A stretch of DNA of 64,000 nt from positions 124,001-188,000 of the forward strand of contig NZ_JAYGHP010000005.1 of assembly GCF_034932065.1 (NCBI RefSeq), written 5' to 3'. A program made the translations under genes and the position numbers. The DNA comes from Crocosphaera sp. UHCC 0190 (GTDB taxonomy: Bacteria > Cyanobacteriota > Cyanobacteriia > Cyanobacteriales > Microcystaceae). Below, piece by piece: positions 55,872 to 63,586 of this stretch (within the stretch, counting starts at the first letter, position 1; the number at the start of each line of letters is the position of its first letter). A model generated the notes under the pieces. The model was not told the DNA's origin. It searched no databases and saw nothing but the letters and a program-made list of their open reading frames with translations.

Positions 55872-57269
55872 CTATAAAATACGAGAAAGCAATTGATAAA
55901 TCAATCGAAATAAAGATGTAACGGCAATTAATCCGGCTCCAGAAATTACTGCAATAATTAATATGTAAGGCAAAGATAAGCTACCGCGAAGTATCGGCAT
56001 AAACATTAATAATAGCGCACTAATTACCCCAATAATCAGTAAATCTTTCCCCTCGATCATACGACGATATTGAGCATAAATTAATCCCCCAATTCCCATA
56101 CATCCGAGGATAATTCCAGGGGCAGCGATTAAACCTTTTAACACTATAATTAACAAAGCTCCTTCAAACCCAGTAAACCCCGCGCTGAGGAGTAATTCTA
56201 CACTGGAAAAAGAATGTTTAGCAACTTTTGAAGAAGGAGAAGGAGACACAATAAGAGGAATAGGTGAAGGCGTTTGAACAGTTGTATTTGGAGTCGGTTT
56301 TATAGGAAGAGAAGGAGAGGAATGTAATGCTTGTAAAACCTCGGTTGCACTGCCATAACGATCATTAGGAATAGGAAGTAAGAGACGATCTAAAATGGCG
56401 GCTAACTTATCGCTAATTTTGGGGACATTGGGTTTCCAATTCCAACAATTATGATAGGAATCATACAATTCTTCTGGGGGTTTTCCCGTTAAAAGATTAA
56501 GACAAGTTGTGGCTAAGGCATATAAATCTGTTGCTGGATAAACGGTTGAACCTTGCATTTGCTCAGGGGGAGCAAACCCCATCGAAAAAATTCCCGTTGA
56601 GCGTTTTTGTTGATTACCTGCCCCGGCGGTTACTTGTTTAACTGCCCCGAAATCAAGTAAATATAAACGCCCCTGTTTATCCCGCATAATATTAGAGGGT
56701 TTAATATCCCGATGAATACAATTATGATCGTGAATAAATTGCAAAACCCCTAAAATTTCCGTCATTACCTCTATTACTTCTGCTTCAGAGAATACCCCAT
56801 TTTTGCGTAATTCTGTTTCTAAATCTTCTCCATCAATTAATTCTTGAACTAAATAAAAAAATTGTTCTTCTTGCTTTGTTAAACCATTAGAAACGACCAA
56901 GGGAAAAAACGCATATAATTGGGGTATTTGGGGATGTTTACTCCCTAATTCTTCTAACGTCACCGCTTCTCGTTCAAATAATTCTTGAGCAATAGCCAAG
57001 GCTTGAGCAGTTAAGTTTCCTTCCGGTTGAAACTGTTTCACCACACACAAACGCATGGTGGGAGTATAGCGATCTTTTGCTAAAAATGCCGCCCCAAATC
57101 CTCCTTTACCTAGTAATTTAGAAGGAAGATAACGACCGGCTAAAATCAGCGGCATTCCACAACTGGTACAGTATTTTTGTTGAACTGTTTTTAGAGTCGT
57201 CGGGTCATCAAGATCCGAAAAATGATTTTTAGGATGAGAACATTCAGGACGAGTACAAAGGATTTCCAT
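55872..57269 (-). CDS. serine/threonine protein kinase with zinc-ribbon N-terminus and membrane tail
   Basis: 465 residues. Cysteines 5, 10, 34 and 37 (CTRPEC...CTSCG) form a probable zinc site. The kinase domain (about 45-310) has the Gly loop LGKGGFG, the catalytic HRDIKPSNIM and DFGAVK, and GFAPPEQ. After a Pro/Ser linker, four hydrophobic helices (about 345-465) anchor it. All active residues are present. It lies 15 bases before the CobA-HemD gene. It is not in the place of SpkG after the 58-63 kb operon. Confidence 0.88.
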   Translation of the reverse strand: MEILCTRPECSHPKNHFSDLDDPTTLKTVQQKYCTSCGMPLILAGRYLPSKLLGKGGFGAAFLAKDRYTPTMRLCVVKQFQPEGNLTAQALAIAQELFEREAVTLEELGSKHPQIPQLYAFFPLVVSNGLTKQEEQFFYLVQELIDGEDLETELRKNGVFSEAEVIEVMTEILGVLQFIHDHNCIHRDIKPSNIMRDKQGRLYLLDFGAVKQVTAGAGNQQKRSTGIFSMGFAPPEQMQGSTVYPATDLYALATTCLNLLTGKPPEELYDSYHNCWNWKPNVPKISDKLAAILDRLLLPIPNDRYGSATEVLQALHSSPSLPIKPTPNTTVQTPSPIPLIVSPSPSSKVAKHSFSSVELLLSAGFTGFEGALLIIVLKGLIAAPGIILGCMGIGGLIYAQYRRMIEGKDLLIIGVISALLLMFMPILRGSLSLPYILIIAVISGAGLIAVTSLFRLIYQLLSRIL

Positions 57270-58438: not shown

Positions 58439-59164
58439 ATGGTTTTCACCTCAAGTGACAGCAAACAAGAAACGAAACAATTATCCCAAAAAGTTGAGCA
58501 TATTTTAAAGAAGAAATATCCTAAAAGACATCATCATTATGGCTTAGAAGATTTTTTCTGTTTTCAAACACAAACTGGAACCATTATTGATTGGAATGAA
58601 TCCCGTAATATTTTAACCAGTGAAGATTTTATTCTGGGTTTAATTGAAGGATTAGAAGAAGAAATCGGCAGTGCAGCAGGAGTCGTTACCTATAACATTG
58701 GTAAAGAATGGGGTAAACGAGACGCTGTCTTTTTTCAACAGTGGCTTTATTCTGAATATGAGTATGAAAAACCCCTTAATCAACTCAATCTAAATTATGT
58801 TTTAGAAGCTTGGTGGTGGCCCTTTACTGCTCAAGGTTGGGGTAACTGGGAAGTGGATATGAGTGAGCAGAAAAATGGCTTTATGTTTGTCAATATTTTT
58901 GACTCTGCTGTTGCTCGAACTTTAGGGGATGTTGGTAAACCTGTTTGTCATATTTACGCTGGATTATTAGCAGGATTTTTCAGCAATTTAGTCAAAAAAG
59001 ACTTAAATGGTATTGAGATTCAATGCTATGCTATGGGGGAAACTTATTGTAAGTTTCTCATCGGTAAAAAAGATCGCATTGATGCAGCAACTTTTTGGTT
59101 AAATGAAGGCGCATTAGCCAAAGATATTGAAAAGCGTTTGTATCATGGGGAGTATCTTAAATGA
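58439..59164 (+). CDS. V4R-domain protein 1 of the PSII-assembly (Pap) operon, Slr0144-like
   Basis: 241 residues, no signal or helix in a membrane. The V4R (4-vinyl reductase) domain lies at about 90-235: GSAAGVVTYNIGKEWGKRDA, WWWPFTAQGWGNWEVDMS, then CHIYAGLLAGFFSNLV and CYAMGETYCKFLIG. The V4R fold occurs in proteins acting on chlorophyll precursors. In Synechocystis its homologue starts the slr0144-slr0152 operon, which is needed for photosystem II assembly or stability. Its stop overlaps the next start (ATGA). Confidence 0.88.
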   Translation: MVFTSSDSKQETKQLSQKVEHILKKKYPKRHHHYGLEDFFCFQTQTGTIIDWNESRNILTSEDFILGLIEGLEEEIGSAAGVVTYNIGKEWGKRDAVFFQQWLYSEYEYEKPLNQLNLNYVLEAWWWPFTAQGWGNWEVDMSEQKNGFMFVNIFDSAVARTLGDVGKPVCHIYAGLLAGFFSNLVKKDLNGIEIQCYAMGETYCKFLIGKKDRIDAATFWLNEGALAKDIEKRLYHGEYLK

Positions 59165-59541
59165 TGAGTATAACAGCTTGGGCAGGGTTAAGTGTCAATG
59201 AGTTTTTTAGTGCCTATAATTGGACTGGTCAACCCCCAAGACTTCAACCCTTAGATACTTCTAAAAATAACATAAAACCTTCATCTTTTTTATGTTTAAG
59301 TTTGGGAGATTTTCTCTCACAAGGTAACTGGACGGGAAAGATTTCTCATCAACCTTTAGTTAAAGCAATGCCAAGAACTCAGCAAGCTTTAATGACGTTA
59401 CCTGTGGCTGAATTTTTTCAAGAAATGGGCTGGCAAGGATTTTCTAAAATAGCTCCAATCGCTCAATCATCTTCTCTTAAAAAGGAAATTAATTCGTCAT
59501 CTCAAGACTTGAATGTAAACAATTTATCCGATTTATTCTAG
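59161..59541 (+). CDS. short triple-repeat protein of the Pap operon, Slr0145-like
   Basis: 126 residues with no known domain. It contains three copies of an L-x-V/L-x-x-F-F/L-x(4)-N/G-W-x-G motif: LSVNEFFSAYNWTG (near residue 10), LSLGDFLSQGNWTG (near 48) and LPVAEFFQEMGWQG (near 80). The repeats are likely short helices for binding a shared partner. The start overlaps the previous stop by four bases, so translation is coupled. Confidence 0.82.
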   Translation: MMSITAWAGLSVNEFFSAYNWTGQPPRLQPLDTSKNNIKPSSFLCLSLGDFLSQGNWTGKISHQPLVKAMPRTQQALMTLPVAEFFQEMGWQGFSKIAPIAQSSSLKKEINSSSQDLNVNNLSDLF

Positions 59542-59551
59542 AATCAAGACC

Positions 59552-60046
59552 ATGCAAAAAGATTTTGAACATTTATTCTATGAAGCAGAAGATCACTATC
59601 TTCAAACTTCAGACATTACGACTCTAAAAAATCAAGCTAATCGCCTTAGAGAATGCTTGGCAATTTATCAGTGTCTGCGGGATCAAGAAATTAGTATTTT
59701 TCAATCTGTTGCTGATAGTTTAGTTGAGGCATTTCCTGATGAAAATAGCCAACGTCTTGAACAGGCTTTAGGACATTGGATGTCCGTGATGCGTTATGGT
59801 GCTATGGCCCTGTTATTAAATAACCCTGATTATTTTAACCATCGTCTCTTAGAATGGCTGACAGATATGGTTCACGCGCAGGAAATGGTGGTCATTGAAA
59901 CTCATCTTTTTGAATGCTTAAAAGAAAAGTTAGAAGAGAGTTTTTCCTCAATACAAATGGCATTAATTAATCCTTTCTTGTCTCAAGCAAAAACCATATT
60001 AATCGAACCAAAATCTTCAGCTAAAATAGAGAACATAGGAGCATAA
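59552..60046 (+). CDS. phycobiliprotein-fold protein 1 (no bilin cysteine), Slr0146-like
   Basis: 164 residues, helical, of the phycobilisome alpha/beta-globin-like family. The bilin-attachment motif C-x-R-D is lost: the matching stretch is HWMSVMRYGAMALLL. It is thus likely a bilin-free relative. It follows the triple-repeat gene by 10 bases and precedes the second V4R gene by 5. Confidence 0.8.
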   Translation: MQKDFEHLFYEAEDHYLQTSDITTLKNQANRLRECLAIYQCLRDQEISIFQSVADSLVEAFPDENSQRLEQALGHWMSVMRYGAMALLLNNPDYFNHRLLEWLTDMVHAQEMVVIETHLFECLKEKLEESFSSIQMALINPFLSQAKTILIEPKSSAKIENIGA

Positions 60047-60051
60047 TTACA

Positions 60052-60729
60052 ATGATTGATGTTGCAAATTTAGCTAACAATTCATCATTAAAAGGAAATT
60101 ACTTTTCCCCTGATGCCTATCTTCAAGGAGACTTTGAATTTGGCTTATTAGAAAATCGTAGTGGTTCCCGTTTACTGGCCTTACCTCAACCTTTATTAGA
60201 GGCTATGTATGCTACTTTAGAAGATGAATTAGGACAAGGAAGTGGTGTCGCTCTATTTAGTTGTGGCCGTTGGTGGGGAAAAAGTTTCTATCAGCGATTT
60301 GCAGAGGAATTAGGGGAATACTATAAACAACCCTTAGCACAAATGGAGATGATTCAGTTTATTCAATGCCTAAAACAATGCTGGAAAACTCATGGATGGG
60401 GAACCCTAGAGATTGATCTAAAATATTATCAGAATGGGTTTTTAATTCCGAAAATTGTTAATTCCCCCTTTGCTCAAGTTGCCCCCCAAAATAAGCGTCC
60501 GATGTGTTTCTTAGAAGCAGGAATTTTAAGTGCATTTTTTACTCAATTAACAGGACAAGATTTACACTGTATTCAAACATCTTGTGAATCAATGGGAGCA
60601 GATTCTAATAACTTTGTTATTGGATTAGCTGAACGCATTAAACCCATTGAAGCTTGGATAGAAGAAGGTCACGATCACGCGACAATTATGGAATTATTGT
60701 GTCGCAATCAATCAAACTTAACTAATTAA
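60052..60729 (+). CDS. V4R-domain protein 2 of the Pap operon, Slr0147-like
   Basis: 225 residues. The V4R domain is at about 60-205 with GSGVALFSCGRWWGKSFYQR, WKTHGWGTLEIDL, MCFLEAGILSAFFTQLTGQ and CIQTSCESMG. It is a paralogue of the first gene of the operon with weak identity; together they may form a heterodimer. It lies 5 bases after the previous gene and 17 before the ferredoxin gene, with TTAGGAGC as ribosome site there. Confidence 0.86.
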   Translation: MIDVANLANNSSLKGNYFSPDAYLQGDFEFGLLENRSGSRLLALPQPLLEAMYATLEDELGQGSGVALFSCGRWWGKSFYQRFAEELGEYYKQPLAQMEMIQFIQCLKQCWKTHGWGTLEIDLKYYQNGFLIPKIVNSPFAQVAPQNKRPMCFLEAGILSAFFTQLTGQDLHCIQTSCESMGADSNNFVIGLAERIKPIEAWIEEGHDHATIMELLCRNQSNLTN

Positions 60730-60746
60730 TTTAGGAGCATTTAAAC

Positions 60747-61229
60747 ATGGCAAAAACTGTTAAACTTGACCCCATTAATCAAGAAGTTGCAATACAAACA
60801 AATGACAATCTTTTGAGTGGTTTACTGCAAAAAGATTTGAATGTTTGGAAAGAGTGCGGAGGAAGGGGAATGTGTTCCACTTGCCATGTTTTTATTACAG
60901 AAGGGATGGATAGTTTATCCCCTGTAAATCGGCGAGAAATGCGTACGATGGAAGTGATTACAACAGCTAATAAATTCTCTCGACTTGCTTGTCAAGCACG
61001 GGTAATTGGAGAAGGTGTTGTCGTTGAAATTCCCTCTGGTATGTATGTCAGTGAAATTGAAAATATTGAAGATTTAATTGGCCGTCGAGCAGAGGAAAAT
61101 ATCTTACATCCCATTACAGGAGCAGTATTAGTTGAGGCGGGAAAATTAGTCACTCGTTCGATGATTACCCAACTCAAAGATACTCAAGTCGAAGTGGCTG
61201 AATACATCGCCAAAACTCAAGATGGATAA
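60747..61229 (+). CDS. [2Fe-2S] ferredoxin, adrenodoxin/Isc type, Slr0148-like
   Basis: 160 residues. The cluster cysteines are Cys37, Cys43, Cys46 (C-GGRGM-C-ST-C) and Cys82 (LACQA). The C-x5-C-x2-C spacing is that of adrenodoxin-type ferredoxins rather than the plant type. A C-terminal extension (about 105-160) is unusual for a small ferredoxin and may bind a partner. In Synechocystis the homologue Slr0148 (Fd5) is a reported target of kinase SpkG. Confidence 0.9.
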   Translation: MAKTVKLDPINQEVAIQTNDNLLSGLLQKDLNVWKECGGRGMCSTCHVFITEGMDSLSPVNRREMRTMEVITTANKFSRLACQARVIGEGVVVEIPSGMYVSEIENIEDLIGRRAEENILHPITGAVLVEAGKLVTRSMITQLKDTQVEVAEYIAKTQDG

Positions 61230-61277
61230 AACACTTAACCTAGTTAATTCTATTGAAAACAAAGGAAAAATAAGCCA

Positions 61278-61751
61278 ATGTTAACACAGTTTTCACGATT
61301 AAGTTTAGAGGCAGATGGCCGTTATGCAACTGATGCAGAATTAGGGTTTATCGAAAGCTATTTAGACTCAGTAGATATGCGCGTCAGTACCTACGAAAAA
61401 ATTCGGGATAATGAAGTAGCAATTCTCCTGGAAGTTGAAGCAAAAATGCACGAATTAAATAAGGATAACTGTCTATATACGATGGGTGAACATGAAAAAG
61501 AAATTTGTCGCCGTGATCGCAAAAATGCCATCCGTTATGCTAGTTCTGCCATGTTAATTAACGACTTAGATCGTTTACGGGATGGACTTTTAATTTGGGT
61601 GCAAACCATTGTTCGTGCTGTGGGTTATAAATTCTTTGTCCGCACCCATTATCCGACAATTCAGGCAGTTATTAAAAAATATTTAACCCCTGAAGAAGCT
61701 GCCTTCATTCTTCCTGCTTTGCAACTTGATAGTACCATTCTTGGTGCCTAA
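61278..61751 (+). CDS. phycobiliprotein-fold protein 2 with bilin-attachment motif, Slr0149-like
   Basis: 157 residues, helical, of the phycobilisome protein family. Cys77-Arg78-Arg79-Asp80 in EICRRDRKNAIRYASSAML matches the C-x-R-D motif that holds the bilin at position 84 of phycobiliproteins, followed by the usual IRY...L. It may bind a bilin or another tetrapyrrole. It starts at ATG 61278. Confidence 0.84.
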   Translation: MLTQFSRLSLEADGRYATDAELGFIESYLDSVDMRVSTYEKIRDNEVAILLEVEAKMHELNKDNCLYTMGEHEKEICRRDRKNAIRYASSAMLINDLDRLRDGLLIWVQTIVRAVGYKFFVRTHYPTIQAVIKKYLTPEEAAFILPALQLDSTILGA

Positions 61752-61795
61752 ACCGTTCAGAAAAATTGAGCAATTTAATCTTGAGGATTTTTGTA

Positions 61796-62116
61796 ATGAA
61801 TGATCAAAATACTGCTTTTAATGTCACTTTAATTAATGCTAAAAAAGATCTAAATAAGACCATTAAAGTGACAGCTAATGACTACATTCTTGACATGGCT
61901 GAGCAACAAGGAATTAAGCATCCTTGTTCTTGTCGCGCTGCTGCTTGTTTTGATTGTTTAGCTAAAGTTATTGAGGGTAATGTCGAACAAAGTTCAAAAG
62001 CTTTATCATTTCTCCGTCCTCATGAAATAAAAGAAGGTTATATCTTGCTTTGTGCGGCATCTCCTACCTCTAATTGCACAATTTTAACTCATCAAGAAGA
62101 AGAATATCTTGCCTAA
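61796..62116 (+). CDS. [2Fe-2S] plant-type ferredoxin, Slr0150-like
   Basis: 106 residues from the ATG at 61796, with TGAGGA upstream; an in-frame TTG at 61766 lacks a ribosome site. The plant-type cluster set is Cys46-x4-Cys51-x2-Cys54 and Cys86, in HPCSCRAAACFDC. There is an added Cys44 two residues before the first ligand. It is shorter in charge than photosynthetic PetF and has little acidic surface. It lies 44 bases after the previous gene and 43 before the TPR gene. Confidence 0.9.
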   Translation: MNDQNTAFNVTLINAKKDLNKTIKVTANDYILDMAEQQGIKHPCSCRAAACFDCLAKVIEGNVEQSSKALSFLRPHEIKEGYILLCAASPTSNCTILTHQEEEYLA

Positions 62117-62159
62117 AAATTCATTAATTTAACTCAGCAATTTAACAGGATTTACAATC

Positions 62160-63107
62160 ATGGAATCACAAGTAGAAACCCAGGAATTAGAAAATCAATC
62201 TAGTGGGAATAATCTCTCTGATATTTTCGATTTATTATCAGGAGTTGGCCTATTTGGCGGTGTCGTTGGCTCATTCTTTGGGAATGCTGCTTTCGCTACA
62301 ATTCCCCTTTCTTTTTCCCTCGCTTTACAAATGGCTAATCGCCGTCAATTAAAAGTAGAAATGGCTCAGGTTCAGCAAACAGCAATTATGCAGTTAACTG
62401 AGCAAATAAATAACAATAAATCTGTGATTTTTGAGCAATTTAACCAGTTACACCAAGAGACTCAGAATAACTGGGAGAAACAAAATCAAGCCTTTCAATC
62501 TAAGGTCAATGATTTGTCAGATAAATTACAAGATTCTCAACAATCTCTTGATGGGTTAATGCAAGAAGATAGAAAACTCAATGAGTTTACTAATGCTTTA
62601 AATGCTCAGCAACAACAAGTTGAAGAAATTGTCAAGAGTTTACAACAAATTGAAAACTTATCCCAAGTAATTCGGAGTAATCCTGATGGGGTTGAAGCTT
62701 ACTATCAACGGGGGTTAAGTCATCAAAAATTAGGGGATAAAACCGGAGCAATTGAAGATTATACCGAAGCCTTACATCTAGATTCTACCTATGCTAAAGC
62801 TTATCACAGTCGTGGCATTTTGTTGGCAGAATTAGGCAGTAAAAAACAAGCAGTTGAAGATTTACGACTGGCAGCTAAATATTACTTTGAACAAGGTGAT
62901 ATTGAAAGCTATGAACAGGCCAGAAATCTGAGCAAAGAATTTTATGAAGTACGTCATTCTCTTATTAACGACGAGGAATCAGAAGTAACTAATTCTGAGG
63001 AGTCAATGATTAAAGGAGATACATCACAAATGATAGATTTAATTGCAGTGGGTAATCTTTTCGATGAAGAGTCTGGGACTGAGAAAAACGTCAGTATACT
63101 TGGTTAG
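62160..63107 (+). CDS. membrane-anchored coiled-coil TPR protein, Slr0151-like
   Basis: 315 residues. Residues about 30-58 are a Gly/Phe-rich hydrophobic segment, probably one membrane anchor; residues about 65-170 are a long coiled coil; residues about 175-245 are two TPR units (AYYQRGLSHQKLGDKTGAIE, then AYHSRGILLAELGSKKQAVE); the C-terminus is acidic. In Synechocystis the homologue Slr0151 affects photosystem II repair and thylakoid organisation. It is the last gene of the operon and is followed by a strong terminator. Confidence 0.88.
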   Translation: MESQVETQELENQSSGNNLSDIFDLLSGVGLFGGVVGSFFGNAAFATIPLSFSLALQMANRRQLKVEMAQVQQTAIMQLTEQINNNKSVIFEQFNQLHQETQNNWEKQNQAFQSKVNDLSDKLQDSQQSLDGLMQEDRKLNEFTNALNAQQQQVEEIVKSLQQIENLSQVIRSNPDGVEAYYQRGLSHQKLGDKTGAIEDYTEALHLDSTYAKAYHSRGILLAELGSKKQAVEDLRLAAKYYFEQGDIESYEQARNLSKEFYEVRHSLINDEESEVTNSEESMIKGDTSQMIDLIAVGNLFDEESGTEKNVSILG

Positions 63108-63154
63108 ACTAGACAAAAAAATGCCATGCTTTGTGTCTTAATTCTCCTTGTTGT

Positions 63155-63187
63155 CAGCGATCTTTAGGACAAGATCGCTGTTTTTTT
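63155..63187 (+). terminator. terminator of the 58-63 kb operon
   Basis: CAGCGATC (63155-63162) pairs perfectly with GATCGCTG (63173-63180), followed by TTTTTTT. It lies 47 bases after the TPR gene stop and closes the unit before any kinase gene. Confidence 0.9.
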
Positions 63188-63412: not shown

Positions 63413-63485
63413 AAAAGTTTTTTTAGCAAATCTCTTGACAAACTTTCGTTAACCTTGGTATGATTATATTCGGCTCAAAAAATAT

Positions 63486-63559
63486 GGGACTGTAGTTCAA
63501 TTGGTTAGAGCACCGCCCTGTCACGGCGGAAGTTGCGGGTTCGAGCCCCGTCAGTCCCG
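63486..63559 (+). tRNA. tRNA-Asp (anticodon GUC)
   Basis: 74 bases. Acceptor GGGACTG/CAGTCCC with discriminator G, anticodon stem CCGCC-CTGTCAC-GGCGG, T arm GCGGG-TTCGAGC-CCCGT (one G-T pair). CCA is not encoded. Confidence 0.97.
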
Positions 63560-63586
63560 TAAAAAAAAAGACAACAGCGTCGTCAG

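Follow-up and report, generated by a model that had tools for sequence, protein, structure and literature searches.

Introduction

In Synechocystis PCC 6803, slr0144-slr0151 have been defined as an operon of eight genes, with transcript mapping cited for this definition (PMC4853703), and spkG (slr0152) has also been described as the last gene of the operon (PMC11863333). Since one definition comprises eight genes, having only eight does not in itself make a version incomplete. The products are named photosystem II (PSII) assembly proteins (Pap) (PMC4853703), and the operon has a role in PSII assembly and repair (PMC4853703, PMC9145668). Slr0151 has CP43 and D1 as partners (PMC4853703), and a Slr0144-Slr0149 interaction rests on co-fractionation and on affinity purification of Slr0149 with AP-MS (PMC9880817). 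SpkG, a Hanks-type kinase, is linked to phosphorylation of the ferredoxin Fd5 (Slr0148). This phosphorylation was reported to be lost in a Synechocystis spkG mutant, and kinase activity of SpkG itself has never been directly demonstrated (PMC11863333). The V4R, Fe-S and globin part of the cluster derives from pre-PcyA bilin-reductase clusters of other bacteria, and the BBAG globins of other bacteria bind bilins; the same 2023 study set slr0150-slr0152 aside, as often missing from the cluster neighbourhood (PMC10151467).

Here we analyze a related locus of Crocosphaera sp. UHCC 0190, a member of the Synechocystis/Crocosphaera family. It lies in a window of 64,000 nucleotides, the whole stretch of DNA that was analyzed, which is C5:124001-188000 (C5 is contig NZ_JAYGHP010000005.1; coordinates without this prefix are those of the window). 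The locus is very probably the Pap operon, a complete slr0144-slr0151 copy with its SpkG gene 84 kb off on the same contig.

Results

All eight genes are on the plus strand. The first, g1 (58439..59164), encodes a V4R protein of the Slr0144 type (Pfam V4R, 3.9e-22) and overlaps by 4 bases with g2 (59161..59541), a Slr0145-type gene recognized by its repeats and conserved tail. The other gaps are 5-48 bases. They separate g3 (59552..60046), a Slr0146-type phycobiliprotein-fold gene (Pfam Phycobilisome, 7.1e-8); g4 (60052..60729), a second V4R gene, of the Slr0147 type (Pfam V4R, 1.1e-18); g5 (60747..61229), encoding an adrenodoxin-like [2Fe-2S] ferredoxin of the Slr0148/Fd5 type (Pfam Fer2, 1e-8); g6 (61278..61751), a Slr0149-type phycobiliprotein-fold gene (Pfam Phycobilisome, 7.2e-12); g7 (61796..62116), encoding a plant-type [2Fe-2S] ferredoxin of the Slr0150/Fd4 type (NCBIfam fdx_plant, 4.3e-30; Pfam Fer2); and g8 (62160..63107), encoding a Slr0151-type TPR protein (Pfam TPR). 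The most likely start of g7 is the ATG at 61796, versus a TTG at 61766 in the ORF list. Behind g8 is a rho-independent terminator-like element on the plus strand (63155..63187), with a hairpin of a 10-pair stem (63155-63180) followed by T7. A tRNA-Asp gene (gtc; 63485..63560, plus strand; ARAGORN) lies outside the operon, and a sigma-70-like promoter at 63435-63464 (promoter scan, 11/12) belongs to it. The spacing, and a terminator solely after g8, support the prediction that g1-g8 share a single transcript.

A preliminary description of this DNA had reported eight tightly spaced genes with a terminator and a tRNA-Asp, and had equated their order with slr0144-slr0151. Both points are borne out, the first by ORF coordinates, hairpin and ARAGORN, the second by the Pfam and NCBIfam families and by recurrence in relatives. 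Profiles place g1 and g3-g8 in named families, and g2 belongs to no family in Pfam, NCBIfam or PHROG. In NCBIfam, g7 scores 103 bits for the plant type, over the cut-off of 81, and the ISC/adrenodoxin type is the top match of g5, under its cut-off. The same eight genes occur in the same order in other genomes of the window's family, and this order is also found on named Crocosphaera, Synechocystis and Hydrococcus contigs. Because it recurs in other genomes, a chance arrangement is excluded. At 13 related loci the orthologues of g5 are 64-84% identical to it, and across the phylum sample most genomes with the cluster have a g1 that is 63-80% identical. The locus thus matches the Pap operon of Synechocystis PCC 6803 in its eight genes, their order, strand and tight spacing; it differs in what follows, as there is no kinase gene downstream of g8, where the terminator and tRNA-Asp stand instead. 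As a locus it is ordinary, adding one more case to an operon type already known.

Several proteins carry features that bear on the working of the cluster. The g1 protein is strikingly conserved, with Cys170, Cys196 and Cys204 present in 59/59 orthologues, and among solved structures g1 finds weak sequence matches only, to phenol-sensor V4R domains. The four cluster cysteines of g5 are invariant among 14 orthologues, and its invariant Ser/Thr candidates include T18, T45, S58, T72 and T136. Phosphosites of Fd5 were not found in the literature searched, and hence we claim no site. The g2 protein has three copies of an LSVxEFFxxxNWxG-like motif and a conserved C-terminal LSDLF; its model is mostly of low confidence (pLDDT 60, pTM 0.22), and no convincing match to the repeat motif was found elsewhere in the genome. 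The g2 protein looks largely unstructured, with three short helical motifs and the conserved tail, features that would suit a tethering role. The nearest solved chain to g7 is 6iri, and g8 has a hydrophobic N-terminal segment and a coiled-coil-like stretch, both read from its sequence. An LSDIF-like motif in the g2 tail and the g8 N-terminus, at first a candidate docking motif, was set aside, the g8 form being limited to close Crocosphaera-type relatives.

The two phycobiliprotein-fold proteins differ in their bilin motif. The g6 model (pLDDT 94) resembles allophycocyanins in fold (TM ~0.8), and its CRRD motif at residues 77-80 places Cys77 on the bilin cysteine of allophycocyanin beta in a profile alignment. 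With both the fold and CxRD, g6 has the marks of a cyanobacterial BBAG. In contrast, g3 carries ALGH at the place of the motif, and CxRD is found in 0/65 of its relatives. Unlike allophycocyanin itself, g3 and g6 fall far under the apcA/apcB cut-offs (g6 reaches 27 of 228 bits), and they miss the cpc and cpe cut-offs as well. Among 69 relatives of g6, the bilin cysteine is kept in 39 and is Trp in 26, and the aspartate is kept in 68. The Trp forms come mostly from Microcoleus- and Leptolyngbya-type loci. In this copy, covalent bilin attachment would be possible for g6 only. Clusters of this kind do not generally require it, because Cys is changed to Trp in many g6 relatives and no g3 has CxRD.

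These data bear on an alternative in which the cluster would serve as a redox enzyme system: a bilin or chlorophyll precursor, held by a V4R or globin protein, would be reduced by the ferredoxins, and the effects on PSII would be secondary. The descent from pre-PcyA clusters speaks for such a system, as do the CRRD of g6 and the three invariant cysteines of g1. Like those clusters, the locus has two V4R genes, an Fe-S ferredoxin and a CxRD globin, but the operon has neither a bilin reductase nor a heme oxygenase gene, and g2, g3, g7 and g8 are extra. The Trp forms of g6 and the g3 sequences also argue against it, and Fd5 was inactive with HoxEFU (PMC7363133). We consider a redox enzyme system unlikely. 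The preliminary description had suggested a redox-driven step on a tetrapyrrole; the bilin motif of g6 favors this suggestion only in part, and it stays hypothetical given a g3 that lacks the motif and a g6 cysteine that is often Trp.

Profiles for SpkG were built from kinases of ~600-627 aa that adjoin the cluster in relatives, downstream of it in loci L058, L059, L062, L065 and L066 and upstream in L069. These kinases align with one another over their full length (36-97% identical). Profile A1 comprises their C-terminal non-kinase halves and A2 the full-length kinases; a second SpkG search besides A1 used A4, a profile of 24 diverse SpkG members, whose lowest true match is 127 bits and whose background begins at 29 bits. 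We surveyed 291 cyanobacterial genomes, with thresholds of E up to 1e-30 for g5 and up to 1e-20 for g1. The g5 gene is present in 48 of the 291, and g1 in the same 48, though in G042 its match is weak, at the level of a V4R paralogue. With only these 48 genomes carrying it, the cluster does not count as a core PSII factor.

SpkG was detected by A1 and A4 in 40 genomes, comprising 40/48 with the cluster and 0/243 without it. By genus, it occurs in 26/33 cluster-bearing and 0/82 cluster-less genera (Fisher p ~1e-41 by genome and ~1e-19 by genus, values that are not corrected for phylogeny). Eight cluster-bearing genomes have no detectable SpkG: G030, G042, G198 and five whose g5 is divergent (40-52% identity). 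Within the window's family, SpkG is present in 16 of the 17 cluster-bearing genomes examined and is unlinked in nine. The exception, G021, has g5 and no SpkG; it is a draft, 90% complete and in 430 contigs. Within one mixed genus (g13), G012 has both SpkG and the cluster, 128 kb apart, and both are absent from G020, G204 and G287.

Of the 40 genomes with SpkG, 26 have it at most 10 kb from a cluster gene. In the others it is on the same contig at a distance (nine genomes) or on another contig (five), and because 14 of the 40 SpkG-bearing genomes are of this kind, its absence beside the operon is common. In six of the 26 linked genomes the cluster is split or on two contigs, and SpkG keeps with one part. 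Gene order was compared at 96 loci, as the preliminary description had proposed, and three arrangements are seen repeatedly. With K for the kinase, they are 1-2-3-4-5-6-(7)-8-K; in Microcoleus and Planktothrix, K reversed beside 5-6, facing 4-3-2-1; and in Leptolyngbya-like loci, 5-6-1-2-3-4-K. The kinase has stayed beside the cluster through rearrangements, and elsewhere, as here, it has been separated without loss. As for the other genes, it is chiefly the Synechocystis/Crocosphaera-like family that has g7 (Slr0150-type) within the cluster, and several other lineages lack it there or have it behind the TPR gene (L069, L096, L100, L104). In Acaryochloris marina MBIC10699, g5-type ferredoxin genes (60-65% identical) are on plasmids NZ_AP026077.1 and NZ_AP026078.1; several g5-matching places per plasmid suggest plasmid-borne copies of the cluster.

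Could SpkG and the cluster simply share ancestry and have survived jointly by chance, without functional need? The genomes lack independence, and no phylogenetic correction entered the test, which leaves room for this reading. However, the nesting also appears at the level of genera, and it persists for unlinked genes inside a single family and inside one mixed genus. In at least three different gene orders, SpkG has also kept its place next to the cluster. A comparable search with a TPR N-terminal profile, by contrast, was not nested, matching 82 genomes, many outside any cluster, although this profile is not specific. We judge shared ancestry alone to be distinctly improbable. From the sequence survey, the co-occurrence supports SpkG being a dedicated kinase of the Pap complex.

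In Crocosphaera sp. UHCC 0190, the SpkG orthologue proposed as a check in the preliminary description was found at C5:96416-98239, outside the window and 84.2 kb upstream of the operon on the same contig. It is an intact ORF of 607 aa. Searched against its own genome, A1 gave a single match even at E 10, at C5:97277-98221 (E 4e-87, 293 bits). With A2, the gene scored 2.9e-218 and the next of 21 kinase matches 1.3e-36. The catalytic Lys, GQGQFG, HCDIKPEN, DFG and APE motifs are all present. A kinase domain together with the best and unique match to the SpkG-specific C-terminal domain identifies the gene as SpkG. It resembles slr0152 in matching over the full length, in the C-terminal domain and in its HCD non-RD loop, and differs in standing outside the operon, so that the nine-gene version with SpkG directly downstream is not found here. 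SpkG kinases are almost all non-RD, with HCD for HRD in the catalytic loop (L058, L062, L071 and others); that of L146 is an exception with HRD.

It is very improbable that this genome has lost phosphorylation control and that the kinase found at a distance is another paralogue. No kinase adjoins the operon, and the genome has ~21 Hanks-type kinases, which speaks for this reading. Yet the C-terminal domain is found in this gene alone, the gene exceeds all other kinases by ~600 bits with the full profile, and its catalytic motifs are intact. As the match is unique and the gene intact, the kinase is not lost, and its control looks relocated rather than uncoupled. The preliminary description had called the operon complete but without its kinase, which is correct for the neighborhood and wrong for the genome; of its two options for phosphorylation control, "located elsewhere" agrees with the intact SpkG gene, and "uncoupled" finds no support, with SpkG intact here and occurring only in cluster-bearing genomes. 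Replacement of SpkG by the neighboring kinase at 55872-57269 is hardly credible: it is only 1.2 kb from the operon start, but it lies on the minus strand with other ORFs in between, has a 4-Cys prefix and C-terminal hydrophobic segments without the SpkG domain, scores 57 bits against the SpkG profile, among the weakest kinases, and stands in a genome where the real SpkG is present. This neighbor is of the NCBIfam 4Cys_prefix_kin type (44 bits versus a cut-off of 24).

Discussion

How might the Pap proteins and a relocated SpkG work together? We tentatively propose a mechanism that, taken as a whole, we rate at somewhat below an even chance. One thylakoid-associated complex would comprise both V4R proteins, both globins and Fd5, as in the Synechocystis papers, and the motif protein g2 may tie it together, a scaffold role that we infer. 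The TPR protein g8 would link the complex to nascent or repairing PSII, and SpkG would phosphorylate Fd5 and so set the activity of the complex; both the docking and the Fd5 phosphorylation come from the Synechocystis papers. While PSII is assembled or repaired, the complex may then sense or pass on a small hydrophobic ligand, for which a bilin or a chlorophyll precursor is plausible. We infer the ligand and the direction of this step. What the present analysis brings to the scheme is the identity and order of the genes, the presence and intactness of SpkG, orthology and co-occurrence.

A bolder proposal goes further. The Pap cluster and SpkG may be a conserved regulatory module in which g6 is a tetrapyrrole sensor, with (Cys) or without (Trp) covalent bilin, and its state, through phosphorylation of Fd5 by SpkG, gates PSII assembly or repair; selection would then keep kinase and cluster in the same genome after they have separated. 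This is speculative, and we regard it as rather unlikely in its entirety.

We did not find the relocated SpkG, the strict co-occurrence or the Cys/Trp split of g6 in the literature searched, which is no proof that they are unpublished. The strict co-occurrence of kinase and cluster is a useful new point of analysis. The natural change from Cys to Trp in g6 makes it possible to test if covalent binding of a bilin is of importance to the cluster. When SpkG does not neighbor the cluster it is usually still in the genome, and when the cluster is absent so is SpkG. The survey thus yields a set of linked and unlinked genomes in which SpkG may be tested as a dedicated kinase.
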